A DNA stretch of 64,000 bases from Kineosporia sp. R_H_3 (GTDB lineage Bacteria > Actinomycetota > Actinomycetes > Actinomycetales > Kineosporiaceae): positions 129,947 through 193,946 of the forward strand of contig NZ_MWLL01000191.1 of assembly GCF_002198675.1 (NCBI RefSeq), in the 5' to 3' direction. Both the position numbers and the translations under genes were made by a program. Of the stretch, positions 4,000-62,497 are shown one piece after another. The stretch's first letter is position 1. Each line of letters opens with the position of its first letter. The notes under the pieces are model-generated. The model worked only from the letters and a program-made list of their open reading frames with translations. It had not been told where the DNA came from and made no database searches.

Positions 4000-4776
4000 T
4001 CATCGCCCCAGCCACCCGCCGTCCACGGGGAGCACGACCCCGTGGACGTAGTCGGAGGCGGCCGACGCGAGGAAGACGGTCGCGCCGGCGAGGTCTGCGG
4101 GGGTGCCCCAGCGCCCGGCCGGGATCCGGTCGAGGATCGACCGGGCGCGGGCCGGGTCGTCCCGCAGGGCCCGGGTGTTGTCGGTCGCGACGTACCCGGG
4201 GGCGACGGCGTTGACGTTGACGCCGTGCGGTGCCCACTCGTTCGCGAGCGCCTTGGTCAGCCCGGCGAGCGCGGACTTGGCCGCGGTGTACGCCGCGACG
4301 TTCAGCCCGCCCTGGAAGCTGAGCAGCGAGGCGGTGAAGAGCACCTTGCCGCGGCCCCGGCGCACCATCTCCCGGCCGACCCGTCGGGTGAGGACGAACT
4401 GGCTGGACAGGTCGACCTCGAGCACGCGGTCCCACATCTCGTCGGTGTGGTCGACGGCCGGGGCCCGTTCGATCGTCCCGGCGTTGTTGACGAGCACGTC
4501 GACGGGGCGGTCCCCGGCGCAGAGCGTCTCGGCGAGGTCGGCCACGGCTGCCCGGTCCGCGAGGTCGACCTGGTAGCCGGTGAAGGTCCGGCCGAGCGCC
4601 TCGACCGCGCGCCCGACGTCGCTGCCCTGCGGCTCGAGGTGGGCCGAGACCCCCACGACGTCGGCGCCGGCCGCGGCGAGGGCCGTGGCCATGGCGAGCC
4701 CGAGCCCGCGGCGCGCGCCCGTGACGACGGCCAGCCGACCGGTGAGGTCGAAGGGGTTCGTGGTCGGCTCAGCCAT
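4000..4776 (-). CDS. SDR oxidoreductase, KduD-like (2-keto-3-deoxy sugar acid dehydrogenase class)
   Basis: A 258-residue classical SDR. Motifs are VTGARRGLG for the cofactor, NNAG, and the YTAAK catalytic Tyr-Lys. The C-terminal half carries segments typical of 2-dehydro-3-deoxy-D-gluconate 5-dehydrogenase (KduD) relatives: YVATDNTRALRDD, LDRIPAGRWG and VDGGWLGR. Its start overlaps the zinc dehydrogenase stop by 8 nt (ATGGCTGA), indicating coupled translation. Next to a sugar-acid dehydratase and a lactonase it probably acts on the 2-keto-3-deoxy acid. A true KduD role in pectin breakdown is the alternative, though no other pectin gene is visible here. Confidence 0.82.
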   Translation of the reverse strand: MAEPTTNPFDLTGRLAVVTGARRGLGLAMATALAAAGADVVGVSAHLEPQGSDVGRAVEALGRTFTGYQVDLADRAAVADLAETLCAGDRPVDVLVNNAGTIERAPAVDHTDEMWDRVLEVDLSSQFVLTRRVGREMVRRGRGKVLFTASLLSFQGGLNVAAYTAAKSALAGLTKALANEWAPHGVNVNAVAPGYVATDNTRALRDDPARARSILDRIPAGRWGTPADLAGATVFLASAASDYVHGVVLPVDGGWLGR

Positions 4777-5791
4777 CGGACCCGCACCTCACGAGGACCT
4801 TGAGCTCCCCGCCCGCATCGAGCCGGGCGAAGGCGTCCGGCGCCTCCTCCAGGGGCACGACCCGGGTGACCAGTCGGTCGGCGGGGACGACGCCGTCGGC
4901 GACGAGCCCGACGGCACGTTCGACGTCCGCCCGCTCGTACACCCGCGCGCCGAGCAGGGTGAGCTCGCGCCAGAACACCCGGAACAGGTCCACGGGCCGC
5001 GGCTGCGGGTGGATGCCCACGACGACCAGCCGGCCGCGGACCGCGAGGGACTGCACCGCGTCGTCGAGACCGGGGCCCGAGCCCGAGACCTCGAACGCCA
5101 GGTCCGCCCCCGCACCCGCCGACCACTGCGCGACGACCTCCGGGACGGACGCCGCCCCCGGGTCGACGACCTGCAGACCGAGCGCCTGCGCCTGGTGACG
5201 GCGGACGGCGTCCACCTCGGCGACGAGGGGCTCGGCGCCCGCGGCCCTGGCGACGAGCGCGACGAGCAGACCCACCGGCCCGGCTCCGACGACGAGGGCG
5301 CGCTCCCCAGGCCGCGGCGCGGCGCGCCGGACGTCGTGGACGGCGACGGCGGTCGGCTCGACGAGCGCGGCGGCCCGCAGCGCGAGGCCGTCCGGCAGCC
5401 GGACGAGCAGCTCGGCGGGCACCGTCCAGCGCTCCTGGAGAGAGCCCGGGGAGTCGATCCCGACGAAGTCGAGCCGTTGGCAGACATGGCTGAACCCGCG
5501 GCGGCAGGCGGGACAGCTGCCGCACCAGCGCAGCGGCATCACCGTGACGGGGTCGCCCGTCGCCCACCCGGCGACACCGGTCCCGACCGACCGGACCCGG
5601 CCGGACATCTCGTGCCCGAGGACGGCGGGGGTCGTGACCCTGGCGTCCATCTCGCCGTGGAGCACGTGCAGGTCGGTCCCGCAGATCCCGGTGTAGGCCA
5701 CGTCGACCGTGACCTGCCCGGGGCCGGGCGGGCGGTCCTCGACGTCCGCGACCTCGAGGGCACCGGCTCCGGTGTAGTGCACGGCGCGCAT
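4769..5791 (-). CDS. Zinc-dependent sugar/polyol dehydrogenase (MDR family)
   Basis: A medium-chain dehydrogenase of 340 residues. The catalytic zinc Cys lies in GICGTDLH and the His-Glu pair in GHEMSG. Four structural-zinc cysteines are present in WCGSCPACRRGFSHVC. The NAD-binding glycine motif is VVGAGPVGLL. The start at 5791 has GGAGG 8 nt upstream and overlaps the lactonase stop (TGATG). It is likely the enzyme that oxidises the sugar to a lactone, or a later hydroxyl, in this pathway. L-threonine, sorbitol and galactitol dehydrogenases are relatives, so the substrate is open. Confidence 0.85.
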   Translation of the reverse strand: MRAVHYTGAGALEVADVEDRPPGPGQVTVDVAYTGICGTDLHVLHGEMDARVTTPAVLGHEMSGRVRSVGTGVAGWATGDPVTVMPLRWCGSCPACRRGFSHVCQRLDFVGIDSPGSLQERWTVPAELLVRLPDGLALRAAALVEPTAVAVHDVRRAAPRPGERALVVGAGPVGLLVALVARAAGAEPLVAEVDAVRRHQAQALGLQVVDPGAASVPEVVAQWSAGAGADLAFEVSGSGPGLDDAVQSLAVRGRLVVVGIHPQPRPVDLFRVFWRELTLLGARVYERADVERAVGLVADGVVPADRLVTRVVPLEEAPDAFARLDAGGELKVLVRCGSDG

Positions 5792-6732
5792 CACGAGCAC
5801 CTCCGTCCTGGGGCCGTGACGAGGGGGCGGGTGTACGTGGCGACCGCGTTGCCCCGCAGGACGAGGTCGCGCTCCGCGGCGTCGAGGTCGTCGACCGCCT
5901 GCAGCACGACGTCGAGCCAGTGGTCGTACGTGGTCGCGAGCGTCAGCACCGGCCAGTCGCTGCCGAACAGGCAGCGCCCGGGGCCGAAGACGTCGAGCGC
6001 GTGACGGAGGAAGGGCAGCAGGTCGGACGCCGCCCGGTGGTCCGGGTCGGCCTCCGTCGCGAGACCGGAGAGCTTGCACCGCACGTTCGGCAGGGCCGCC
6101 AGCCGCCGCAGGTCATCCGCCCACGGGCCGTAGGTGTCCGCGCTGATCCGCGGTTTGCCCAGGTGGTCGAGCACGAACTCGACGGCCGGCAGGCGCCGGA
6201 CCAGGTCGACCGCCTCCGGCAGCTGCCGGCTGCGCACGCACAGGTCGAACGGCAGCCCGCGCGCACCGATCGCCGCGACCCCGGCGACGACCTCCGGCCG
6301 GGCCAGGAAGCCCGGCGGTTCGTCCTGGAGCAGCCGACGGGCCCCGGCGAGGCCGTCCAGGCCCGCCAGGTCGTCCAGCGCCGCGGCGGTGGTGGCAGGA
6401 CCGGTGCCGGGCCCGAACGGGACGTGCGCCACGGCACCGACGACGGGCAGCTCCGGGGTCGACGCCGCGAGCACCCACCGCGCCTCGGCGAGCGCCTGCC
6501 GGGGCAGCCGGTCGGCCTCGACGACGACGACCCCGGCCGGCGGGGCACCGGCGGACCGGGCGGCGGCGAGCAGGTCGGGGGCGTGGAACGGCCGGTCCAG
6601 CCCAGCGGTGCCGGTGAGCCACGGGTACGTGAGGAGCCCGGGGTCCCACAGGTGGACGTGCGCGTCGACGTAGCCGGGGCGCGCGCCGTCCCGGGCGCCG
6701 CGCCCCGGGGGGCCGGTCGGGGCGGCGCTCAC
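5791..6732 (-). CDS. Amidohydrolase-family sugar lactonase (COG3618 type)
   Basis: A 313-residue metal-dependent TIM-barrel hydrolase resembling L-fuconolactone and L-rhamnono-lactone hydrolases. The HxH metal motif is in YVDAHVHLWDP near residues 21-31, a later His is in LDHLGKP, and the catalytic Asp is in LFGSDWPV. It would open a sugar lactone to the aldonate. The GTG start overlaps the dehydratase stop by 4 nt (GTGA), so the two are co-translated. The order dehydratase, lactonase and dehydrogenases matches oxidative catabolism of fucose- or rhamnose-like sugars. The exact sugar is an inference that sequence cannot settle. Confidence 0.83.
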   Translation of the reverse strand: MSAAPTGPPGRGARDGARPGYVDAHVHLWDPGLLTYPWLTGTAGLDRPFHAPDLLAAARSAGAPPAGVVVVEADRLPRQALAEARWVLAASTPELPVVGAVAHVPFGPGTGPATTAAALDDLAGLDGLAGARRLLQDEPPGFLARPEVVAGVAAIGARGLPFDLCVRSRQLPEAVDLVRRLPAVEFVLDHLGKPRISADTYGPWADDLRRLAALPNVRCKLSGLATEADPDHRAASDLLPFLRHALDVFGPGRCLFGSDWPVLTLATTYDHWLDVVLQAVDDLDAAERDLVLRGNAVATYTRPLVTAPGRRCS

Positions 6733-7877
6733 GACGTCCGGTCCGGGACGAGGCGGTGACCGGCACGGGCCGGCCGGACGTGCGGGCCGGACGGGCGCGG
6801 CCCTTCACCGGCGGCGACGGCCGCCACGGCGGCCTCGTCGACGACGATCCCGAGGCCCGGGCTGTCGCCGAGGACGAAGGCGCCGTCCTCGACCCGGACG
6901 TCGACGAGCAGCCCGACCGGCGGCACGAGGTCCTGCAGCTCGCTGGCGATGTGGTTCGGCACCGCGGTGGCGGCGTGCAGCAGACCCGTCGGCGTCGTCC
7001 CGATCGGGCTCACCGGCAGGTCGTGCGCCTGTGCGAGGGCCGCGACGCGCAGGAAGTGCGTGACGCCCCAGACCGCCGCGGTCTGCACGATGTCGACGGC
7101 CCCGGCCGCGAGCAGCGGGCGGAACTGCTCGAGCCCGGTGAGGTTCTCGCCGGTCGCGACCGACGCCCTGATCCCGCGCCCGACGGTGGCCAGCCCTTCG
7201 GCGTCCCAGCGCCGTACGGGCTCCTCCACCCAGATGAGGTCGAGCGTGCGCTCGAGCTCGTGGACGTGCCGCACGGCCTGCTTGCGCGTCCAGGACTCGT
7301 TGGCGTCGAGCATGAGCCCGGGGCGCGCGCCGCCGGACGCGTCCGCGAGCACGTCGCGGACGAGGCCGAGCCGGCGCCGGTCCTCGTCGACGTCGAGGCC
7401 GCCCTTGAGCTTGGCGGCCCGGACGCCCCGCTCCGCGTACGCCCGGTAGACCTCGACGAGGGCGTCGTCCGGCAGCCCCATGTCGAGGCCGGACGCGTAG
7501 GCGGTGACGGTGCGGTCCCGACCACCGAGCAGGCGCCACAGCGGCTCGCCGGCGAGCTGGGCCTTGATGTCCCACAGGGCCGTGTCGAGGGCGCCGATCG
7601 TGCCGAAGACCGCTCCGGCGTGCCCGGCCTTGAAGGTGCGGCGCAGCATCCGGTCGTAGAGCGCCGTGACGCAGCGCGGGTCCTCGCCCTCGATCGCCGC
7701 GAACACGCCGTCGAGCTCGACGTGCGGGCCGAGCCCGACCCCGGTGACGCCCTCGTCGGTGTCGACGAGCACGAGCGGCACCGGGACGAGGCCGTCGGCG
7801 AACGCCCCGTTGGCGTCCCCGACGGGACGGCCCCAGCGCTGGAGCGTCGTCAGGGCCCGGTAGCCCGTGACCCGCAT
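6729..7877 (-). CDS. Enolase-superfamily sugar-acid dehydratase (mandelate racemase/MLE fold)
   Basis: A 382-residue enolase-superfamily protein. The KxK base motif appears in AAKLKGG. The metal ligands are Asp in LDANESW, Glu in VEEP and Glu in ATGENLTG. The usual His of the second-base dyad is not visible: the matching region reads LPVSPIG. It likely removes water from an aldonate to give a 2-keto-3-deoxy acid. The ATG at 7877 has AGGAGGG 5 nt upstream and is the first gene of the operon, facing the FadR-type regulator. The exact subgroup (fuconate, rhamnonate or other) is not resolved, and the missing His leaves room for another reaction. Confidence 0.82.
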   Translation of the reverse strand: MRVTGYRALTTLQRWGRPVGDANGAFADGLVPVPLVLVDTDEGVTGVGLGPHVELDGVFAAIEGEDPRCVTALYDRMLRRTFKAGHAGAVFGTIGALDTALWDIKAQLAGEPLWRLLGGRDRTVTAYASGLDMGLPDDALVEVYRAYAERGVRAAKLKGGLDVDEDRRRLGLVRDVLADASGGARPGLMLDANESWTRKQAVRHVHELERTLDLIWVEEPVRRWDAEGLATVGRGIRASVATGENLTGLEQFRPLLAAGAVDIVQTAAVWGVTHFLRVAALAQAHDLPVSPIGTTPTGLLHAATAVPNHIASELQDLVPPVGLLVDVRVEDGAFVLGDSPGLGIVVDEAAVAAVAAGEGPRPSGPHVRPARAGHRLVPDRTS

Positions 7878-7975: not shown

Positions 7976-8039
7976 CGCCCGGGGTGGCTATACTCGGCGC
8001 GACCGGACTCGGGTGTCCGGCGGCACGACCGGAGGGACC

Positions 8040-8810
8040 ATGACGGCATCGGACCAGGCACCCGCGACCGCGGGCGCCGCGCCGCCGTGGGCCCGCCGTC
8101 CGGCGAACCTCGCCAGCGCGGTGGCCGCGGAGCTCGTCGCCAGGATCGTCGGCGGCGCGCACCCGCCGGGCTCACCGCTGCCGACCGAACCCGTGCTGTG
8201 CGAGACGTTCTCGGTGAGCCGCACCGTCGTCCGCGAGGCGGTGAAGATGCTGCAGGAGAAAGGCCTGGTCCAGGTCCGTCAGGGGTCCGGGACGACCGTG
8301 ACCCAGCCTGCGCTGTGGAACCTCCTCGACGAGCTGGTGCTCGCGGCGACGATCGGCCAGGAGGACGGGCTGGCGGCGCTGGACGACCTCGTGGTCACCC
8401 GGCGGCTGCTGGAGTCCGACATGGCGTTCGTGGCCGCGCGTCTGGCCGACGACGACGTCGTCGACCGGCTGCGGGCCCTCGTCGACCGGATGGACGAGCT
8501 GGTCGACGACCACGTGGCCTACGCCGAGCACGACCGCGCCTTCCACGACCTGGTGATGCAGACGTCCGGCAACCGGATCGCCCGGGCGGTCGTGCGCGCG
8601 CTGGAGAGCCAGGTCGTCAACACCGTGCGCTACATGGGCCACCCGTACCGCGAGCAGTGCGTCGCCTCGAACCGCGGCCACCGCCGGATCTACGAGACCA
8701 TCGCCGCCCACCGGTCGGAGCAGGCGTCCGAGGCGATGTTCACCCACATCACCGAGGCCTGGCTCGTCCGGCGCGAAGGCCGCGGGGACGCGACCAGGCT
8801 GGCCCGCTGA
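8040..8810 (+). CDS. FadR-subfamily GntR transcriptional regulator
   Basis: A 256-residue regulator. A winged helix-turn-helix spans about residues 22-90, with PTEPVLCETFSVSRTVVREA and LVQVRQGSGT. An FCD ligand domain follows, with the metal-site pattern in HDRAFHDLV and later His in GHRRIYETI and FTHI. The ATG at 8040 follows GGAGGG at 8031. It is divergent from the sugar-acid operon and likely represses it until a pathway intermediate binds. A TATACT -10 element lies at 7989-7994. The operator at 7955-7965 is the probable target. Confidence 0.88.
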   Translation: MTASDQAPATAGAAPPWARRPANLASAVAAELVARIVGGAHPPGSPLPTEPVLCETFSVSRTVVREAVKMLQEKGLVQVRQGSGTTVTQPALWNLLDELVLAATIGQEDGLAALDDLVVTRRLLESDMAFVAARLADDDVVDRLRALVDRMDELVDDHVAYAEHDRAFHDLVMQTSGNRIARAVVRALESQVVNTVRYMGHPYREQCVASNRGHRRIYETIAAHRSEQASEAMFTHITEAWLVRREGRGDATRLAR

Positions 8811-8839
8811 GGCGGACGGCGGCCGCGCGGGCCGACACC

Positions 8840-8874
8840 TTGTGCCGGGCCGGTCGGGGGCACAGGCTGGGCGC
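8840..8874 (+). promoter_or_regulatory. Putative leaderless promoter of the HD-domain gene
   Basis: TTGTGC (8840-8845), a 17-nt spacer and CAGGCT (8863-8868) are followed after 6 nt by the ATG at 8875. This places transcription start at or next to the start codon, and no Shine-Dalgarno sequence is seen. The -10 match is weak apart from the conserved A and final T. Confidence 0.35.
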
Positions 8875-9441
8875 ATGGAGACCGTCTCGTTCACCGCCAT
8901 GGCCGACGGCACGCAGGAGGACTACGCCCTGCTCAAGAAGCACGAGGACGGCTTCGTCGCCGCCCTGCCGGACCGGTTGCTCGAAGCCCTCGACGCGCTG
9001 AGGTCCTCGCTCGGCGGGTACCGGATCACCCGGCTCGAGCACTCGCTGCAGGCGGCGACGCGGGCCGAGCGCGACGGCCGCGACGAGGAGTACGTCGTCG
9101 CCGCGCTCCTGCACGACATCGGCGACGACCTCGCGCCGTACACCCACGGCGAGCTCGCCGCGGCCGTGCTGAAGCCGTACGTCCGCCCCGAGCTGACCTG
9201 GGTCGTCAAGCACCACGGGGTGTTCCAGCTCTTCTACTACGGCCACCACGTCGGGGCCGACCGGAACGCCCGCGACCGGTTCCGGGACTCGCCGCACTTC
9301 GACGCGTGCGCCGAGTTCTGCGAGAAGTACGACCAGAACTGCTTCGACCCGGACTACGACACGCTGCCCGTCGAGCACTTCGAGCCGGTGCTGCGACGCG
9401 TCGTCGCCGCGCCGCGCTACCTGCAGGAGGGCATCAGCTGA
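8875..9441 (+). CDS. HD-domain protein, possible mixed-valent diiron oxygenase (PhnZ/MIOX-like)
   Basis: A 188-residue protein with a full HD metal site: His in LEHSLQAA, the HD pair in LLHDIGDD, a further His in YTHGE, and HHG in VVKHHGVFQLF. A late Asp lies in CEKYDQNCFDPDYD. The LEHSLQ and HHG-FQ-YY pattern resembles the HD oxygenases PhnZ and TmpB and inositol oxygenase more than nucleotide phosphohydrolases. If so it would use iron and oxygen to cleave a C-C or C-P bond. No phosphonate or inositol genes are adjacent, so the substrate is unknown. A plain HD phosphohydrolase remains possible. The start at 8875 is preferred because of the apparent leaderless promoter. Confidence 0.72.
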   Translation: METVSFTAMADGTQEDYALLKKHEDGFVAALPDRLLEALDALRSSLGGYRITRLEHSLQAATRAERDGRDEEYVVAALLHDIGDDLAPYTHGELAAAVLKPYVRPELTWVVKHHGVFQLFYYGHHVGADRNARDRFRDSPHFDACAEFCEKYDQNCFDPDYDTLPVEHFEPVLRRVVAAPRYLQEGIS

Positions 9442-9445
9442 CGGC

Positions 9446-9488
9446 GTCGGCCGTCCGGGCCCCGGAAGGGCCCGTCGGGGCGGCCGAC
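9446..9488 (+). terminator. Two-part GC hairpin after the HD-domain gene
   Basis: Outer arms GTCGGCCG (9446-9453) and CGGCCGAC (9481-9488) enclose inner arms CGGGCCC (9456-9462) and GGGCCCG (9468-9474). The structure sits 4 nt past the stop codon. No U-run follows, as is usual for hairpin terminators in high-GC actinomycetes. Confidence 0.5.
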
Positions 9489-9570
9489 CGCGACCTGGGG
9501 TGTACGCCTGACCGGCGGGAACGGCCGCGACCTGCTCAAGCCCTTGCACGACCTCGCCGATCCCTCTACG

Positions 9571-10626
9571 GTGCCGGGTCTGGCGAGCACGACGAGGCGG
9601 CGACAGCCCCGGCGCACCGTCCACGCGGACGCCGCGCCGCTCGCTGCCGCCGCGTTCCTGTTCTCCTCGGCCGCTCTGATCTACCTCTCCCTCGCGGTCC
9701 CCGACTACATCCGCCGTGACTGGGCCCTGGCCTTCGGCCTGACGGGCGTGCCGTGCATCGTCCTGGGCGCGCTGCTCGTGCGCCGTGGTCGCCTCGGCCG
9801 CGCGGGGATGGTCGGCATCGTGCTGTTCGGCGACATCGCGATCGTCCTGTCCGGCTACGCGTCGACCGACCGCAACGGCACGACCGCCGGCGCCCTGCTG
9901 AGCCTGCCGACGCTGTTCACCGGCACGTTCCTCCCACCGCGGTGGCTCAAGGTCCAGATCGCGATCGCCACGGGCAGTGCCTGGGCGATCAACGCGCTGG
10001 TCCCCGCCCGGCCCGAGGTCCACCTCATCCGCACGGCCGTCCTGGTCGTCGCGTGCTCGTGCCCCGCCGTCATCGTGGTCCTGCTACGCCGGCAGCTGGA
10101 CCGGGCCGTCGTCACCGATCCCCTGACCGGGCTGCTCAACCGGCGGGGGCTGGACGCCGCCTTCCCGTCGGCCGTGGCCCGGGCGCGCAGGGCGGGCATG
10201 CCCGTCACCGTCCTGCTGGCCGACGTCGACCACTTCAAACGCATCAACGACGAGCTCGGGCACCTGGCCGGTGACGAGGTGCTCCGCTCGGTGGCAGCGG
10301 CGACGGCCGCTGCCGTACGGGCCGAGGACGTCGTCGTCCGCTTCGGGGGCGAGGAGCTGGCCGTCGTCCTCGTCGCCCCCGTGGAACAGGTACGGGCGGC
10401 TGCCGAGCGCGTCCGGCGCACGGTCGAGCAGGCGGACGCCCTGCGCCCGGTGACCGTGAGCATCGGGGCGGCCTGGGCCGCCCCCGACCTCGACGACCAC
10501 GAGCTGCTCGACACGCTGGTCCGTCTGGCGGACGCCCGCATGTACGAGGCGAAGCGGGCCGGCCGCAACCGGACCGTCCTGCCCGGGCCCGGCGGCACCG
10601 ACGCCGGGGCCGAGGTCTCCGGGTAG
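9571..10626 (+). CDS. Membrane-anchored diguanylate cyclase (GGDEF)
   Basis: A protein of about 351 residues. Several hydrophobic helices (roughly residues 25-165) are followed by a GGDEF domain. The substrate loop DVDHFKRINDELGH and the active-site motif RFGGEEL are intact. An RxxD product-inhibition site (RAED) lies in the canonical position before the signature. It should make cyclic di-GMP at the membrane and be feedback-inhibited. No sensory domain beyond the membrane part is recognised. The start is uncertain: GTG at 9571 and TTG at 9544 are both in frame and neither has a Shine-Dalgarno sequence. Confidence 0.85.
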   Translation: MPGLASTTRRRQPRRTVHADAAPLAAAAFLFSSAALIYLSLAVPDYIRRDWALAFGLTGVPCIVLGALLVRRGRLGRAGMVGIVLFGDIAIVLSGYASTDRNGTTAGALLSLPTLFTGTFLPPRWLKVQIAIATGSAWAINALVPARPEVHLIRTAVLVVACSCPAVIVVLLRRQLDRAVVTDPLTGLLNRRGLDAAFPSAVARARRAGMPVTVLLADVDHFKRINDELGHLAGDEVLRSVAAATAAAVRAEDVVVRFGGEELAVVLVAPVEQVRAAAERVRRTVEQADALRPVTVSIGAAWAAPDLDDHELLDTLVRLADARMYEAKRAGRNRTVLPGPGGTDAGAEVSG

Positions 10627-55166: not shown

Positions 55167-57197
55167 TCAGAGCGCGCGGGCGAGCCGGGCCGCGTCGAGC
55201 ATGGCCGCGTGCACGTTGCGGCCTGCGACGGCGTCCCCGATCCGGAACAGCTGGTAGGTACCGCCGGGGTTGCGGACGGCGCTCTGCGCCCGGAGGGCGA
55301 GCAGGTCCTCGACGCGGACCTCGCCGTGGTTGCTCGAGCCGGGGACGAGCTCGTCGTAGAGGTCGGTGACCGCGACGGTGCCGACCTCGGCGACGACGGC
55401 GTCGACGAGCCGGGTCTCGGTGCGACTCGCCCCCTCGGCGCCGAGCGTGACGAGCAACCCGTCCGGCGCGCGCTCCACCGAGAGCAGCCGGCGCAGCACG
55501 GTCTGCCGGACGCCCCCCTCGGCGAGGGCGACGAAGTAGCCCGCCCCGACGAGCGCACCCACCTCGGGCGAGACCGTCCGCTCCGGCGTGACGAGCTCGA
55601 CCTCGGCACCCGCACGCAGCAGCGCCTCGGTGACGTCGAGGGCCTGGGTGCCGCCGTGGTCGTCGTAGACGAGCACCCGGCCGGTGGGCCGCTTCGCCCC
55701 CGAGACGACGTCCCACCCGTCGAGGACGAGCTGCGCCCCCGGGACGTCGGGCCGCCCGGGCAGGCCGCCGGTGGCGACGACGACGACGTCGTACCCGCCG
55801 GCCGCGAGCGTGTCGGCCTCCGCGTAGGTGTCGAGGTGCACCTTGACGCCGAGCCGCTCCAGCTCCTGGGCACGCCAGTCGACGATCCCCTGCAGGTCGC
55901 GCCGGCGCGGCGACAGGGACGCCAGGGCGAGCTGGCCGCCGAGCGCGGAGTTCGCCTCGAAGAGGGTCACGTCGTGGCCGCGCTCACCGGCGACCCGGGC
56001 GGCCTCGAGCCCGGCGGGGCCGCCGCCGACGACCGCCACCCGGCGCGGCGCCGCCGCCGGGGCGACGACCTGCGGCACCTCGAGCTCGCGCCCGCTCGAC
56101 GGGTTGTGGATGCAGAAGGCCGCACCGCTGGTGTAGATGCTGTCGATGCACATGTTCGCGCCGACGCAGGGCCGGATCCGGTCCTCCTGGCCGGTCGCGA
56201 CCTTGAGCGGCAGGTACGGGTCGGCGAGCAGCGCACGCGTCATCCCGACGAGGTCGAGCAGACCCGCCTCGATCGCGTAGCGGGCGGTCGCGACGTCGGC
56301 GATCCGGGCCGCGTGCATGACGGGCACGGTGAGCTCACGCTTCATCCGGCCGGCGAACTCCAGGTGCGGCGAGGCGGGCGTCCCCATCGGAGGGATCATC
56401 CGGGACAGCGCCGTGTCGCTCTCGATCGAGCCCTTGACGAGGCTGATGAAGTCGATGCCGGCGGCGGCGATGTCGCGGCCGATCCGCAGCGCCTCCTGCG
56501 GGCCGACGCCGGGTGCGCGCTCCTCGTCGAAGCTGACCCGGGCACCGACGAGGAAGTCGTCGGGGACGGCGGCCCGGACGGCGCGGATCACCTCGAGCGG
56601 GTAGCGCATCCGGTTCTCGTAGGACCCGCCGTACTCGTCGTCGCGGTGGTTCCAGAACGGCGTCCAGAACGAGTCGAGGAAGTGCCCGTAGAGCATGAGC
56701 TCGATGCCGTCGAGCCCGGCCTCCCGGCAGGCCTGCGCGCCGCGGACGAAGTCGTCCTTGATCCGGTCGAGGTCCCACTGCTCCGCGGCCTTGGCGAAGG
56801 CGCGGTGGGCCGGTTCCCGGGTGGCGCTCGCGGACACCGCCGGGACCCAGTCGTGGGTGTAGTTGCTCGTCCGGTGGCCGAGGTGGGTCAGCTGGATCAT
56901 GACGGCGGCGCCGTGCTCGTGGACCTCGTCGGCGAGGCGGCGCATCCAGGGGACGGACTCGTCCTTCCACACCTGCAGGTTGCCGAACGCCGGGGCGCTG
57001 TCCCGGCTGACGAGGGCACTGCCGCCGATCATGGTCAGCCCGACCCCGCCCCGGGCCTTCTCCACGTGGTACGCCCGGTAGCGGTCCTTGGGCAGACCGT
57101 CGTCGCTGTAGGCCGGCTCGTGCGAAGTGCTGACGATCCGGTTGCGCAGAGTCAGGCTCTTGAGACGGAAGGGGGTGAGCAGCGGGTCGGTCGCCAC
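55167..57197 (-). CDS. NADH:flavin oxidoreductase with Fe-S and FAD domains (FadH/TMADH/demethylase type)
   Basis: A 676-residue protein. An N-terminal Old-Yellow-Enzyme FMN barrel (residues 1-340; LTLRNRIVSTSHEP, HRDDEYGGSYENRMRYPLEV) is followed by a Cys segment and a C-terminal FAD/NAD domain (VAVVGGGPAGLEAARVAG). The family normally has CxxCxxxC or CxxCxxC for a 4Fe-4S cluster; here the stretch is CVGANMC, so the second Cys is Ala. The GTG at 57197 has AGGAGG 5 nt upstream. Relatives act on dienoyl-CoA, methylamines or N-methylproline. The substrate is unknown. Confidence 0.85.
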   Translation of the reverse strand: MATDPLLTPFRLKSLTLRNRIVSTSHEPAYSDDGLPKDRYRAYHVEKARGGVGLTMIGGSALVSRDSAPAFGNLQVWKDESVPWMRRLADEVHEHGAAVMIQLTHLGHRTSNYTHDWVPAVSASATREPAHRAFAKAAEQWDLDRIKDDFVRGAQACREAGLDGIELMLYGHFLDSFWTPFWNHRDDEYGGSYENRMRYPLEVIRAVRAAVPDDFLVGARVSFDEERAPGVGPQEALRIGRDIAAAGIDFISLVKGSIESDTALSRMIPPMGTPASPHLEFAGRMKRELTVPVMHAARIADVATARYAIEAGLLDLVGMTRALLADPYLPLKVATGQEDRIRPCVGANMCIDSIYTSGAAFCIHNPSSGRELEVPQVVAPAAAPRRVAVVGGGPAGLEAARVAGERGHDVTLFEANSALGGQLALASLSPRRRDLQGIVDWRAQELERLGVKVHLDTYAEADTLAAGGYDVVVVATGGLPGRPDVPGAQLVLDGWDVVSGAKRPTGRVLVYDDHGGTQALDVTEALLRAGAEVELVTPERTVSPEVGALVGAGYFVALAEGGVRQTVLRRLLSVERAPDGLLVTLGAEGASRTETRLVDAVVAEVGTVAVTDLYDELVPGSSNHGEVRVEDLLALRAQSAVRNPGGTYQLFRIGDAVAGRNVHAAMLDAARLARAL

Positions 57198-57326
57198 GAG
57201 CGCCTCCTGTGGGCCACAAGGCGTCGGGTCCGCGGCGCCTCCCCCACGATGCGGTGCGGCTCCCGCCCGGCGCGAGAGGGCACCGAGGATTCGGCCCGCT
57301 CGCGAGTCCCCGATGCATAAGTGCCT

Positions 57327-57338
57327 TACCCTCGACCA
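57327..57338 (+). promoter_or_regulatory. -10 box directly before the fusion regulator gene
   Basis: TACCCT (57327-57332) lies 6 nt before the GTG at 57339, consistent with a leaderless transcript. The -35 region is weak. The -10 match is modest. Confidence 0.35.
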
Positions 57339-58916
57339 GTGCGCGCGCAGCGGAGGACAGGGCTGTCGCCGGCGCAGGTGAGGCTGCTGCGGCGGCTCGC
57401 CGAGGCGGACCCGGAACCAGCCGTCGCGCGGCGGGCCCGGGTGCTCCTCGGTGAGGAACCGGTCTCCCGGCAGACGGCGGCGAAGTGGTCCGCGCGGTTC
57501 GCCGCGCACGGCGCCGCCGGGCTGCGCGACCTGCCGCGGACCGGCCGGCCGCCGACGCACGGCGACGAGTCGGTGCGCAGCATCCTCGTCGCGCCGCTGC
57601 TCGCTCCGACGCCGCGGTGGACCTCGCACACCGTCGCCCGGCTCACCGGGCAGAGCCAGACGGCCGTCGTCCGCGCCTGGCGCCAGGCCTTCGAAGCAGG
57701 TGCGGCGCACCCGGGCGGATCGCTGCCCTCCGGCGGGCTCGCGCTCGTCGCGGCCCGCTGCGACTCCTCGAACAGTGTCCTCGTCCTCGCCGCGCACGCG
57801 ACCGCCGTCCCACCGGAGAGCACCACGCCGTTCATGCGCTCGCCGCGGCGGCCGCCGCTGCAGGCGCTGCTCGCCGCCGACCTGCTCGCGAGGGCCCTCC
57901 CGCCGGACGCCGCCCCCACGCCGGACCCCGGGGCGGCGCCGGACCTGCCGGCGACCGTGCGTCGCCGGCTGGGTACCCGCACCCCGCTGTTCGTCCTCTC
58001 CCGCCGGCCGCTGCCCGCACCGGACCCCGTACCACCCGGGGTCGAGTACCTTCACCTCGCCCCGGACGACCCGTGGCAGGGCCTCCTGGAGACCCTCGTC
58101 CGCCGCTGCACCGCGACGCCGCAGCCGCACCTGGCCGCGCTGCAGCAGCGGCTCATGGCCTGGGCGCAGGGCGACGGCGGGCCGTTCGAATGGCTCGGGG
58201 ACGGTGCCCCGGACCGGGCCGGACGCCCGACGACCCCGGGCGGAGAGCCGCGGCCGACCGGCCAGGTGGTCGCGGACGCCGTCCTCGCCTCGGTCCTCGA
58301 GCGGATCACCGCGGGCCGGCTCACGGCCGGCGACCGGATCACCGAGTCGTCCCTGTCCCGGGCCGTGCACGCCTCGCGCGGACACGTCCGCGAGGCGCTG
58401 CTCGTGCTGGCGTCCAACGGGCTCGTCGACCTGGAGCCGCGCCGCGGCGCCCTCGTGCCGGCGCCCCAGGTGGCCGACGTCGTCGAGACGTACGCCGTCC
58501 GGCGGGCCCTCGGCGCCCTGCTCGTCCGCCGTGCGGCGCAGTCGGCCCCCGGTTCGCTGGCCCCCGTCGAGCGTGCCCTTACGGCGCTCGTCACCGTCGC
58601 CGCGACCGGTGACGCGCGGGCCAGCGGTGAGGCGGACATCGGGTTCCAGGACGCCCTCGCCCTGAGCACCGGGATGCGCCGGGTGCCACGGATGTTCGTG
58701 GCCCTGTCGTCGCAGATCCGCCTCTTCACCGCCGTCATGGGCGTGCGCTACGCGTACTCCGTCCCGCAGATGGTCCGCGACGACACCCTCCTGCTCCATC
58801 ACGTCACGGCGCGCGACGAGGCGTCGGCGCTCCAGACGTGGCACACGAAGATGGACGACGCCGTCGCGTACATGCTCACGCAGCTCGGGTCGCCGGGCCC
58901 GGCGCTGCGCCGGTAG
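57339..58916 (+). CDS. GntR/FCD regulator fused to an inactive IS630-type transposase
   Basis: A 525-residue protein. Residues 8-115 look like the IS630 transposase DNA-binding part (LSPAQVRLLRRL, KWSARFAAHGAAGLRDLPR, TGQSQTAVVRAWRQAF). Residues 130-295 follow the IS630 DDE domain (LVLAAHATAVPPE, PLFVLSRR, YLHLAPDDPWQGLLETLV, LMAWAQGDGGPFEW). At the catalytic positions His153 and Ser221 replace Asp, and Glu251 remains. Residues 307-375 are a GntR winged helix (TESSLSRAVHASRGHVREAL) followed by an FCD-like domain. It is divergent from the flavin oxidoreductase. GTG 57339 is preferred; GTG 57321 adds six residues. Confidence 0.8.
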   Translation: MRAQRRTGLSPAQVRLLRRLAEADPEPAVARRARVLLGEEPVSRQTAAKWSARFAAHGAAGLRDLPRTGRPPTHGDESVRSILVAPLLAPTPRWTSHTVARLTGQSQTAVVRAWRQAFEAGAAHPGGSLPSGGLALVAARCDSSNSVLVLAAHATAVPPESTTPFMRSPRRPPLQALLAADLLARALPPDAAPTPDPGAAPDLPATVRRRLGTRTPLFVLSRRPLPAPDPVPPGVEYLHLAPDDPWQGLLETLVRRCTATPQPHLAALQQRLMAWAQGDGGPFEWLGDGAPDRAGRPTTPGGEPRPTGQVVADAVLASVLERITAGRLTAGDRITESSLSRAVHASRGHVREALLVLASNGLVDLEPRRGALVPAPQVADVVETYAVRRALGALLVRRAAQSAPGSLAPVERALTALVTVAATGDARASGEADIGFQDALALSTGMRRVPRMFVALSSQIRLFTAVMGVRYAYSVPQMVRDDTLLLHHVTARDEASALQTWHTKMDDAVAYMLTQLGSPGPALRR

Positions 58917-59337: not shown

Positions 59338-59793
59338 TCAGCCGGCCGGGTCCGGCAGGATCTCGGCGAGGAGGCCCTCGACGTTGGCCCGGATCTGGTC
59401 GCGGATCGGGCGGACGGCGTCGATGCCCTGGCCGGCCGGGTCCTCGAGCGGCCAGTCGAGGTACCGGGTGCCGGGGTACCACGGGCACTCGTCGCCGCAC
59501 CCCATGGTGATGACGACGTCGCTGGCCTGGACGGCCTCGCCGGTGAGGACCTTGGGCGTGGCGGCGGTGATGTCGATGCCGACCTCGGCCATCGCCTCCA
59601 CCGCGACCGGGTTGACCCGGTCGCCGGGAGCGGTGCCGGCCGAGCGGACCTCGACGCGGTCGCCGGCGAGCGCGGTGAGCCAGCCGGCGGCCATCTGCGA
59701 GCGACCGGCGTTGTGGATGCAGACGAACAGGACGGACGGCCTGTCGCCCTTCGTGGCGCGCTCCGCGGGGGCGGGGGTGCTGTCGGTGGTCAC
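59338..59793 (-). CDS. arsC: Arsenate reductase (low-molecular-weight phosphatase fold)
   Basis: A 151-residue ArsC of the LMW-phosphatase class. The arsenate-binding loop is CIHNAGRS (CX5R) near residue 25. Further cysteines in MGCGDECP can relay the disulphide. It reduces arsenate to arsenite with thioredoxin or mycothiol. GTG start with AAGGAG 6 nt upstream. Second gene after the aquaglyceroporin, 29 nt apart. Confidence 0.9.
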   Translation of the reverse strand: MTTDSTPAPAERATKGDRPSVLFVCIHNAGRSQMAAGWLTALAGDRVEVRSAGTAPGDRVNPVAVEAMAEVGIDITAATPKVLTGEAVQASDVVITMGCGDECPWYPGTRYLDWPLEDPAGQGIDAVRPIRDQIRANVEGLLAEILPDPAG

Positions 59794-59822
59794 GTGGTGC
59801 TCCTTCGAGGTCCGGGCCGGGG

Positions 59823-60560
59823 TCAGCTGCTGTGGTGCGGGACGACGGCGTCGTCCGCGGTCTGCCCGACGTCCGGGTAGAGGGCGCGGACGAGGGCGAT
59901 CCCGACGCCGCCGCCGACGACCTGGACGGCGACGAACGGCAGCACGGACGACGGGGCGATGCCGGCGAACGTGTCGGAGAAGACCCGGCCGACCGTCACG
60001 GCCGGGTTGGCGAACGACGTCGACGAGGTGAACCAGTACGCCGACCCGATGTACGCACCGACGGCCGCTGCGGACAGCGGCGCGCGCCCGGTGCGGGCGA
60101 GGGCGAAGATCAGCGCGACGAGACCGGCGGTCGCGACGACCTCACCGACGAGCACTCCGCCGCTGACCCGCTCGTGGGTGGCGATCTGGGCGGCGTCGAG
60201 GCCGTACATGATGTTGGCGAGCACCGCGCCCGCGATCGCCCCGACGACCTGCGCGACCGTGTACGCGAGGACGTCCGCCCCCGGCAGCCCGGCACCGGTC
60301 CGCCGGCCGAGCAGCCAGTCCGCCGCGGACACCACGGGGTTGAAGTGGGCGCCGGACACCGGCCCGAAGAGCAGGATCAGCACGGCGAGCCCGAACACGG
60401 TCGCGGTGCTGTTCTCGAGCAGCTGCAGCCCCACGTCGTCCGGCGAGAGCTGCTGGGCCGCGATCCCGGACCCGACGACCACCGTCACGAGCAGGGCCGT
60501 GCCGACGCACTCGGCGAGGAGCCGGCGGGCCAGGTCGGGGCCAGGGTTGACATCTGCCAT
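59823..60560 (-). CDS. Aquaglyceroporin of the arsenic locus (AqpS-like)
   Basis: A 245-residue MIP-family channel with six hydrophobic helices. The first pore motif is NPV (HFNPVVS) instead of NPA and the second is NPA (FANPAVTVGR). Placed between arsC and the divergent arsR fusion, it probably lets arsenite leave the cell, as AqpS does in Sinorhizobium. The ATG follows TATGAT by 6 nt, so the transcript looks leaderless. Confidence 0.87.
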   Translation of the reverse strand: MADVNPGPDLARRLLAECVGTALLVTVVVGSGIAAQQLSPDDVGLQLLENSTATVFGLAVLILLFGPVSGAHFNPVVSAADWLLGRRTGAGLPGADVLAYTVAQVVGAIAGAVLANIMYGLDAAQIATHERVSGGVLVGEVVATAGLVALIFALARTGRAPLSAAAVGAYIGSAYWFTSSTSFANPAVTVGRVFSDTFAGIAPSSVLPFVAVQVVGGGVGIALVRALYPDVGQTADDAVVPHHSS

Positions 60561-60566
60561 GCCTCG

Positions 60567-60582
60567 ATCATAGTTGAGTCAA
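60567..60582. promoter_or_regulatory. Shared ars control region
   Basis: On the minus strand TATGAT (60572-60567) is the -10 box of the channel gene. On the plus strand TTGACA (60547-60552) and CATAGT (60569-60574), 16 nt apart, may drive the arsR fusion. TTGAGTCAA (60574-60582), a 9-bp palindrome, adjoins both and is the likely ArsR operator. Confidence 0.45.
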
Positions 60583-60598
60583 TACAGTTGGAGGCAAG

Positions 60599-61372
60599 AT
60601 GGCTGGACGCAGCACCGGACGGCGGGACGCACCGCCCCTCGCGGACCGGTCGCAGCGGCTGCTCGCGCGCGCGGCGCGGTTCGCCGCGGTGGGCGAACCG
60701 GTCCGGCTGGCGATCGTGGAGCACCTCGCGCTCGGCGACGCGGCACCGAGCGAGCTGGGCGCACTGGTCGACCTGCCGAGCAACCTCCTCGCGCACCACC
60801 TCAAGGTCCTCGAGGAGGCGGGCGTCGTCCGGCGCATCCGGTCCGAGGGCGACCGGCGCCGCTCGTACGTCCGGCTGCGCCTGGAGGACCCGGCCGTCGC
60901 CGCCCTGGTCGCCCCGCACCTCGCGGACGCCGGCGGTCGGCTCGGCGAACCGGGAAGCGCCGCCCGCGTGGTGTTCGTCTGCACGCACAACTCCGCCCGC
61001 TCCCAGCTCGCCGCGGCGGCGTGGGAGCAGGTCAGCGACCTGCCGGTCGCGTCCGCCGGGACGCACCCGGCGGCGAGGGTGCACCCGCGGGCGGTGTCGA
61101 CCGCACGCCGGCACGGGCTGCGCCTCGCCGGCCGGCGGCCGCAGCCGCTCGACGCGACGGCCCGGCACGGCGACCTGCTCGTCGCCGTGTGCGACAACGC
61201 CTACGAGGACCTCGGCCCGGCGCCCGACCGGCCCGGCGCCCGGCTGCACTGGTCGGTCCCCGACCCGGTGCGCGTCGACACCGACGCGGCCTTCGAGACC
61301 GCCTACGACGACATCGACCGCCGGGTCCGGCACCTCGCCGAGACCCTGGGCAGACAGGAGCACCCGGCATGA
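60599..61372 (+). CDS. ArsR-family regulator fused to an arsenate-reductase/LMW-phosphatase domain
   Basis: A 257-residue two-domain protein. Residues 15-100 are an ArsR-type winged helix (FAAVGEPVRLAIVEHL, LPSNLLAHHLKVLEEAGVV). Residues 122-250 are an LMW-phosphatase fold with CX5R (Cys128-THNSA-Arg134). No CxC arsenite site like that of classical ArsR is seen in the helix part. It probably represses both sides of the divergent ars region; the second domain may sense or reduce arsenate. GGAGG lies 4 nt before the ATG. Confidence 0.87.
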   Translation: MAGRSTGRRDAPPLADRSQRLLARAARFAAVGEPVRLAIVEHLALGDAAPSELGALVDLPSNLLAHHLKVLEEAGVVRRIRSEGDRRRSYVRLRLEDPAVAALVAPHLADAGGRLGEPGSAARVVFVCTHNSARSQLAAAAWEQVSDLPVASAGTHPAARVHPRAVSTARRHGLRLAGRRPQPLDATARHGDLLVAVCDNAYEDLGPAPDRPGARLHWSVPDPVRVDTDAAFETAYDDIDRRVRHLAETLGRQEHPA

Positions 61373-62037
61373 CCGTCCCCGACACCGAGCGGCCCTCCTG
61401 GGCAAGCCTCCCGCTGGAGCAGACGGTGGCGCTGCGCGCCGCGGCCGGCCGTCTCGCCGACGACTTCACGGGCGTCTTCGGCACCGAGACCATCGAGCGG
61501 TTCCTGCACTCCTCGTTCGACCAGTTCGCCGGGCGCGCGACGGTCCCGCAGTTCCTGCCGCTCATCGCCGAGCGCTTCGCCCGGCAGCGGCTGCGCGCCC
61601 TCGCGAAGATCGAGGGCCTGCACGACGACGGCAAGCCGACGGTGCTGTTCCTCTGCGTGCACAACGCGGGCCGCTCCCAGATGGCCATGGGGTTCTTCAC
61701 CCACCTCGCCGGGGACGGCGCCGTCGCCTGGTCCGGCGGCTCCGAGCCGGGCACCCAGGTCAACCCGGTCGCCGTCGAGGCCATGCGCGAGCGCGGTATC
61801 GACATCTCCGCGGAGTTCCCCAAGCCGTGGACCGACGAGACCGTCCGCGCCGCCGACGTCGTCATCACCATGGGCTGCGGCGACGCCTGCCCGATCTTCC
61901 CCGGCAAGCGCTACGAGGAGTGGACCCTCGACGACCCGGCCGGCCGCGCGATCGACGACGTGCGGGCGGTCCGGGACGACATCGAGCGCCGGGTCCGGCG
62001 GCTGCTCGCGGAGCTCGAGGTGCCGGTCCGTGCCTGA
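61369..62037 (+). CDS. arsC: Arsenate reductase with N-terminal three-helix domain
   Basis: A 222-residue protein. Residues 15-80 form a helical bundle (TETIERFLHSSFDQFAG, FLPLIAERFARQRL). An ArsC LMW-phosphatase domain follows with Cys96-VHNAG-Arg102 and MGCGDACPIFPGKRYEEW. Such fusions are common in actinomycetes. Its ATG overlaps the arsR fusion stop (ATGA), so the two are co-translated. It should reduce arsenate. Confidence 0.9.
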   Translation: MTVPDTERPSWASLPLEQTVALRAAAGRLADDFTGVFGTETIERFLHSSFDQFAGRATVPQFLPLIAERFARQRLRALAKIEGLHDDGKPTVLFLCVHNAGRSQMAMGFFTHLAGDGAVAWSGGSEPGTQVNPVAVEAMRERGIDISAEFPKPWTDETVRAADVVITMGCGDACPIFPGKRYEEWTLDDPAGRAIDDVRAVRDDIERRVRRLLAELEVPVRA

Positions 62038-62497
62038 CCGGCCGAGCATCACGGCGGAGCACGACGTGGTGCGCGCCCGGCCGCGCGTGCTGTTCGTGTG
62101 CGTCAAGAACGGCGGCAAGTCACAGATGGCCGAGGCGCTGATGCGTCACGTCGCGGGTGACGGCGTCGATGCGGCCTCGGCTGGGACCCGGGCCGGTACG
62201 GCGGTGAACACGCTGTCCGCCGACTCCCTGCTCGAGCTGGGGATCGACATCCGCGGGAACACCCCGCGACAGCTCACGGCCGACCTGGTGGACGCGAGCG
62301 ACCTGGTGGTCGTCCTCGGTCAGGACGCCGAGGTCGACCCGGGGCGGGGGACCCCGGTCGAGCGATGGGAGACCGACGAACCGTCGGAGCGCGGCATCGA
62401 GGGGATCGAGCGCATGCGGCTGGTCCGCGACGACATCCTCGACCGGGTCGCCGCGCTCAACGAGCGGCTCACACCGTCGGGGCCGAACGGGCCGTAG
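62030..62497 (+). CDS. Arsenate-mycothiol transferase-type ArsC with CX5K loop
   Basis: A 155-residue LMW-phosphatase-fold protein. The active loop is CVKNGGKS: Cys24 is present but the usual loop Arg is Lys30. This loop resembles actinomycete enzymes that join arsenate to mycothiol, so that role is likely. The GTG start overlaps the previous stop by 8 nt. The C-terminus overlaps the convergent DUF2180 gene by 29 nt. Confidence 0.8.
   Translation: MPDRPSITAEHDVVRARPRVLFVCVKNGGKSQMAEALMRHVAGDGVDAASAGTRAGTAVNTLSADSLLELGIDIRGNTPRQLTADLVDASDLVVVLGQDAEVDPGRGTPVERWETDEPSERGIEGIERMRLVRDDILDRVAALNERLTPSGPNGP

Follow-up and report, generated by a model that had tools for sequence, protein, structure and literature searches.

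Ordinary members of the GntR/FCD family of regulators typically begin with the GntR helix, which is followed by a ligand-binding domain. Transposon proteins can also turn into bacterial transcription factors, and this is the origin of the TldR proteins. These are TnpB-related, RNA-guided transcription factors (PMC13418256). In eukaryotes, transposase capture is a described route to new host proteins, with fusions such as SETMAR as examples (PMC8327481, PMC8704517). Transcription factors derived from mobile elements have been reviewed with phage and antitoxin examples, and in the main text of that review the term IS630 occurs 0 times (PMC8987985). Among the titles and abstract openings returned by a literature search, no bacterial IS630-GntR or IS630-ROK regulator was named.

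The protein described here is encoded in a stretch of 64,000 nucleotides from Kineosporia sp. R_H_3, referred to as the window. It is rather probably a host GntR/FCD regulator of the neighbouring catabolic gene, the N-half of which descended from an IS630 transposase whose DNA-binding module was kept as a second DNA reader. This reading builds on a single reading frame, a conserved fusion, a catalytic triad that is lost, two halves that are each under purifying selection, and a divergent catabolic neighbour.

The fused regulator gene

The gene is located at 57339..58916 on the forward strand and encodes 525 aa from a GTG at 57339. An alternative GTG at 57321 would yield a product of 531 aa, and the frame 57321-58916 (+) is open throughout. 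An earlier note on this DNA described an IS630 part that continues without a stop into a GntR helix and an FCD-like domain, which is borne out by the single 525-aa frame. Specifically, a GntR winged HTH is found at residues 313-373 (58275..58457, +; Pfam PF00392, E 8.5e-11) and an FCD ligand-binding domain at residues 383-501 (58485..58841, +; Pfam PF07729, E 9.4e-9), both above cut-off. The closest PDB sequence is that of the putative GntR regulator 2hs5, with an E value of 5.3e-14 over residues 320-513. Because both defining domains are present, the protein is classed as a GntR/FCD regulator. It is not classed as an IS630 transposase, since neither an intact catalytic triad nor the DDE_3 domain was found.

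In a tree of the C-halves, the 14 fused proteins, which include near copies, form one clade against 14 others with a support of 100/98. The comparison rows are top matches of one search, with one frame taken at each of 14 loci. Twelve of these frames are 224-295 aa long, which fits regulators that begin with the GntR helix; two are long (711 and 730 aa), and their upstream part was judged by eye.

In its own genome the gene is present in one copy, accompanied by a paralogue with 47% identity (L025). The IS630 model gives three weak matches in this genome, the window gene being among them. Around the gene, the best 25 of 200 candidate pairs of terminal inverted repeats (the longest ones) are imperfect, with 70-82% identity, and none is convincing.

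Distribution of the fusion

Orthologues occur in Kineosporia sp. A_224 (L001) and in a MAG (L002); they are about 90% identical and share the domain order. The paralogue L025 has the same order minus the first HTH. A search in other genera, as suggested in the earlier note, located the fusion in three further families, including the genera g12 and g52 and the family f6.

In genus g12 (family f7), an initial search detected fused proteins in G018, G036 and G052. A fused profile of ten members matches 46 of the 51 g12 genomes; in 39 the match spans at least positions 4-535 of 554. Upon inspection, the proteins of all seven remaining matching genomes have HTH sequence from the N-half joined in frame to GntR/FCD; it runs from the GRP linker on in five of them and covers both HTHs in two. 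One TGA lies within the match in four of the 39 full-cover rows (G018, G611, G598 and G619), and the reading frame of G018 and that of G611 end at the 3' end of the gene. Some g12 genomes contain a second, more distant and lower-scoring fused GntR/FCD type (L170, 1214-2839, and L171, 2096-3718, both on the minus strand), and putA is absent from the fetched stretch around these two loci.

Within genus g52, the fused profile matches 7 of 219 genomes. Four of the proteins are full length and three are without the HTH module: G534 retains just its final portion in frame, G468 retains none of it, and in G449 the C-half is in pieces. The family f6 member (G396), obtained in a search of the class with the N-half profile, begins after the first HTH. 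Among genomes of the class, the GntR type was detected in at least 3 of 394 at E <= 1e-40 and a type fused to a ROK regulator in at least 1 of 394 at E <= 1e-130, while at least 1 of 198 phylum genomes, the source genome itself, gave a match; these counts are lower bounds because just two to six candidates were scored per genome. No plasmid record covers 80% of the query for either L137, a g52 member of the GntR type, or L135, a member of the ROK type.

Some N-half-only matches, L029 among them, resemble IS630-type proteins, which counts against a fused-regulator reading, as do the three g52 proteins without the HTH module. L029 (27-1055, -) is located in genome G003, from the same family as the window, and encodes a stand-alone IS630-like protein of 343 aa. 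It shows strong HTH_32 and HTH_29 matches, a triad changed to P, S and H, and PFVW near its end, and may be an unfused copy that is either domesticated or in decay.

The tree of the N-modules, from which L025 was omitted as too short, is poorly resolved, and a single clade of GntR-fused modules is not rejected (p 0.263). The most economical interpretation is a single ancient fusion that was inherited or transferred across no fewer than four families and subsequently lost in places.

The HTH region and the GRP linker

The HTH part of the N-half is significantly IS630-like in the window protein, and it is the only part that is; the middle is not. Pfam HTH_32 (PF13565) matches residues 46-105 with an E value of 5e-8 and 33.8 bits, against a cut-off of 33.7. 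The NCBIfam IS630 model NF033545 matches residues 42-110 (E 8.6e-8, 32 bits), its whole-protein cut-off of 100 being far above. Matches to HTH_29 and HTH_28 begin at residue 42, both under their cut-offs.

A paired HTH had been proposed, and the second of the two stands. Of the IS630-type module, the first HTH region (residues ~9-60; 57363..57518, +) stands only in part, as 12 residues present in L137 are missing from it in the alignment; in the paralogue L025 it is wholly absent. RTGRP at residues 67-71 (57537..57551, +) forms the GRP-type linker between both HTHs. In an alignment of ten rows, R67 and P71 are invariant in all ten, and G69 and R70 are identical in at least nine of those present. 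The second HTH (residues 93-118; 57615..57692, +) shows the strongest conservation within the N-half, with 7 of its 26 columns identical in at least nine of the ten rows (A100, T103, G104, S106, Q107, V110 and R112). The whole N-half has 18 such columns, 12 of which fall into the GRP linker and the second HTH (58 positions) and 5 into the middle (175 positions).

This pattern bears on whether the N-half still binds DNA. It could have lost this ability and serve as a structural or oligomerisation domain, the protein then being an ordinary GntR/FCD regulator. The first HTH is damaged in the window protein and absent in L025 and several relatives, the middle is strongly diverged, the constraint on the N-half is weaker, and three g52 relatives are without the HTH module, all of which favour such a role. 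Since the first HTH is absent in L025, in the f6 member and in five of the seven inspected g12 proteins, the N-half may bind DNA less well. However, the GRP linker and the second HTH are the best conserved in the N-half over four families, and even the shortened g12 and f6 proteins retain them. A purely structural role is unlikely, albeit a serious contender, and a second DNA reader is the preferred reading.

The degenerate middle and the catalytic triad

The middle of the protein (residues 119-293; 57693..58217, +) includes PFEW at residues 282-285 and would represent the degenerate remains of an IS630 catalytic domain, with homology drawn through the g52 relatives. Under two MAFFT settings, with the g52 relatives as bridges, His153 occupies the position of the first Asp and Glu251 that of the Glu, as had been called before. 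The second Asp, previously assigned to Ser221, corresponds to a gap in one setting and to Arg222 in the other, adjoining Ser221. Judging from these alignments, the catalytic triad is lost in the window protein. Among the reference transposase rows, 13 of 14 show D, D and E, and L054 has an Arg at the first position. All three triad positions are changed in L128, L158 and L159 of genus g52. L137, from the same genus, has kept the Glu and an Asp at the first position, while the residue at its second position changes between Gly and Asp with the alignment. The DDE_3 domain (PF13358) is absent among the Pfam families matched at E up to 10, in a search whose filters drop most weak matches; the control transposase L106 matches PF13358 with an E value of 1.7e-16.

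The middles were also compared on their own using hhalign, four pairs being accompanied by 60 column shuffles each and by a reversed comparison. The window-type middle reaches a probability of 0.9% and a score of 18.3 against IS630 (shuffle maximum 18.9, reversed 15.8), and a score of 17.1 against the g52 GntR-type middle (shuffle maximum 17.3, reversed 19.8). The ROK-type middle scores 26.9 against the window-type middle (shuffle maximum 19.4, reversed 12.5). For the g52 GntR-type middle against IS630, the probability is 97.7% and the score 84.7 (shuffle maximum 24.6, reversed 16.5). In comparisons without shuffles, the ROK-type middle alone is not significant against IS630 (1.1%) and reaches 29.3% against the g52 GntR type, and the g12-type middle gives at most 0.4% against the three others. 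Because the window-type middle does not exceed its shuffles, its descent from IS630 is deduced via relatives only.

These relatives are the four g52 N-halves of L137, L128, L158 and L159, which align with 14 IS630 transposases over their whole length (hhalign 100%). In a tblastn search, the N-half of L137 matches at least 12 plasmid records annotated as IS630 transposase, with 34.5-37.7% identity over 309-358 residues. The proposed IS630 likeness from end to end, over residues 8-295, therefore holds for the HTH part. For residues 120-295 it is not demonstrable from the window protein and its close kin, and there the likeness rests on the g52 relatives. AlphaFold models have a mean pLDDT of 43.9 (N-half, three sequences) and 38.0 (full protein), which is too low to use, and a Foldseek search with the N-half model gave 76 matches at E <= 10 and 0 at E <= 0.001. 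The order of the predicted elements is compatible with an RNase H-like remnant, but is not counted as evidence.

A generic HTH region joined to unrelated sequence, with no IS630 origin, would explain why the window-type and g12-type middles are without a significant IS630 match, and also why models of other transposase families pick up the HTH of g12-type proteins as well. Nevertheless, the HTH part of the window protein scores on the IS630 model, the four g52 proteins match IS630 over the whole module, both in hhalign and, for L137, in tblastn, and the fused C-halves form one clade. An origin of this kind is very improbable, and descent of the N-half from an IS630 transposase is retained.

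Reading frame and selection

The halves might have been separate genes with a frameshift between them, yet no stop is present in the window gene, L001, L002 or L025. The GC content at the codon positions follows the same coding pattern in both halves, with values of 0.93 and 0.96 at the third position. The dN/dS ratios were determined according to Nei-Gojobori for the three pairs among the window gene, L001 and L002. In the N-half they amount to 0.24-0.39 for the HTH region and 0.27-0.37 for the middle, and in the C-half to 0.08-0.18 for GntR and 0.14-0.18 for FCD. The linker of 14 codons shows 0.29-0.62. For the pair of window gene and paralogue the overall ratio is 0.64, at a divergence too great for this value to be weighed. 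Both halves are under purifying selection, with GntR/FCD more strongly constrained than the N-half.

Chance read-through of an IS630 remnant lying in frame before a GntR gene with its real start near residue 308 is already largely refuted and has next to no probability left: accidental long frames are frequent at the local GC content of 77%, but this frame is conserved in the orthologues, the paralogue and the g12 and g52 relatives, the N-half is constrained, and the codon-position pattern is of the coding type in both halves. The domestication put forward in the earlier note, with lost catalysis and a fusion to GntR/FCD, is supported by the orthologues, the paralogue and the fused relatives in other families, as well as by the missing triad and by purifying selection.

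ROK regulators with a similar N-half

In genus g52, an IS630-type N-half is also found in front of a MarR-like HTH with a ROK domain. Following the matches with long open frames gave nine such loci in 8 of 150 genomes, and both counts are lower bounds. The loci are L139 (4114-6369, -), L135, L136, L130, L132, L131, L133, L134 and L126, and the genomes are G274, G490 (twice), G472, G446, G479, G480, G535 and G482. At L130 (1402-4131, -) in G446, the sequence of the ROK part includes a series of unread residues, after which it is out of phase by eye. Seven ROK-type N-halves align with IS630 at an hhalign probability of 99.7% over 306 columns, and in L088 the HTH part has a match to the IS630 model at 1.6e-20. 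In an AU test, one clade of all fused N-modules (GntR and ROK) has a borderline p value of 0.0525.

The same kind of module thus precedes two unrelated regulator domains. As the GntR/FCD and ROK halves belong to different families, the module was either captured on two or more occasions or passed from one regulator to another. Both the ROK regulators and the presence of the layout in other families go beyond the earlier note. Actinobacterial regulators may repeatedly have captured IS630 transposases, GntR/FCD and ROK proteins each gaining an N-terminal module that lost catalysis and is used as a second specificity module, perhaps on operators that once were transposon ends. We regard this broader proposal as evenly poised. 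If true, it would be a bacterial counterpart of eukaryotic transposase capture, and some regulators would carry a second DNA-reading part that is not told by their family name.

Neighbouring genes and proposed function

Divergent from the regulator lies a gene for a flavin oxidoreductase of 676 aa (55173..57200, -), which is of the old-yellow-enzyme (OYE)/FadH-like type according to its Pfam domains Oxidored_FMN and Pyr_redox_2. Its best NCBIfam match is mycofact_OYE_2, under the cut-off of that model. An OYE-type gene is divergent from the regulator in the window, at L001 and L002, and at the paralogue locus L025. At the latter, the regulator (6449-7828, -) faces away from the flavin oxidoreductase (8001-10046, +), and an FAD enzyme of the amino-acid-oxidase kind is encoded nearby (4283-5596, -). 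In all 19 g12 genomes inspected (L145-L155, L026 and L163-L169) and in the f6 member, putA adjoins the regulator on the opposite strand. With OYE and putA as neighbours, the family adjoins genes for catabolic flavoenzymes, a setting in which local regulators would be expected. The target in the window is likely the divergent flavin oxidoreductase gene (55173-57200), and in the families f6 and f7 likely putA, which belongs to proline breakdown. OYE and putA might be linked via proline or methylated proline, a guess based on related enzymes.

The region between the divergent genes (57201..57338) is the presumed operator region. By eye, no operator or promoter motif was recognised in it when aligned with L001, L002 and L025, and the aligned upstream regions of 11 g12 loci showed no convincing palindrome or second site. 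Downstream of the regulator, translations from 59338-62497 include several arsenate-reductase-like small phosphatases and an aquaporin-like channel, as well as an ArsR-type HTH joined to an arsenate-reductase-like phosphatase (60599-61372). This part of the window looks like an arsenic resistance cluster.

For a regulator that has kept the transposase module as a second DNA reader, the following division of tasks can be envisaged. The FCD domain would sense a metabolite of the neighbouring pathway, and the GntR helix would bind an operator in the divergent intergenic region. From the transposase module, the GRP linker and the second HTH would contact a further stretch of DNA nearby, conferring more specificity or affinity, and the dead RNase H-like remnant could act as a spacer or an oligomerisation surface. 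From this arrangement, we infer two-site binding by the fused regulator.

Comparison with known systems

In common with GntR family regulators of the FCD type, the window protein contains a GntR winged HTH followed by an FCD domain. It differs from them in about 300 extra IS630-type residues at its N-terminus. With the IS630 (Tc1/mariner-like) transposases it shares an HTH, a GRP linker and a second HTH, and in the g52 relatives the likeness to these transposases spans the whole module. Unlike them, the window protein has lost the triad, is fused to a regulator and occurs as one copy with a diverged paralogue.

Fusions of the SETMAR type resemble the window protein in that a host protein is joined to a transposase-derived DNA-binding part. 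The window protein, in contrast, is bacterial, and its transposase part is N-terminal in a regulator with a ligand-binding domain. A conserved bacterial capture in two regulator families would offer a simple, testable system for the recruitment of a transposon DNA reader, which here would take place in a single frame without splicing.

TldR shares with the window protein the proposed path from a transposon protein to a bacterial transcription factor. To our knowledge, TldR is not fused to a GntR or ROK regulator and, unlike the window protein, it is guided by RNA.
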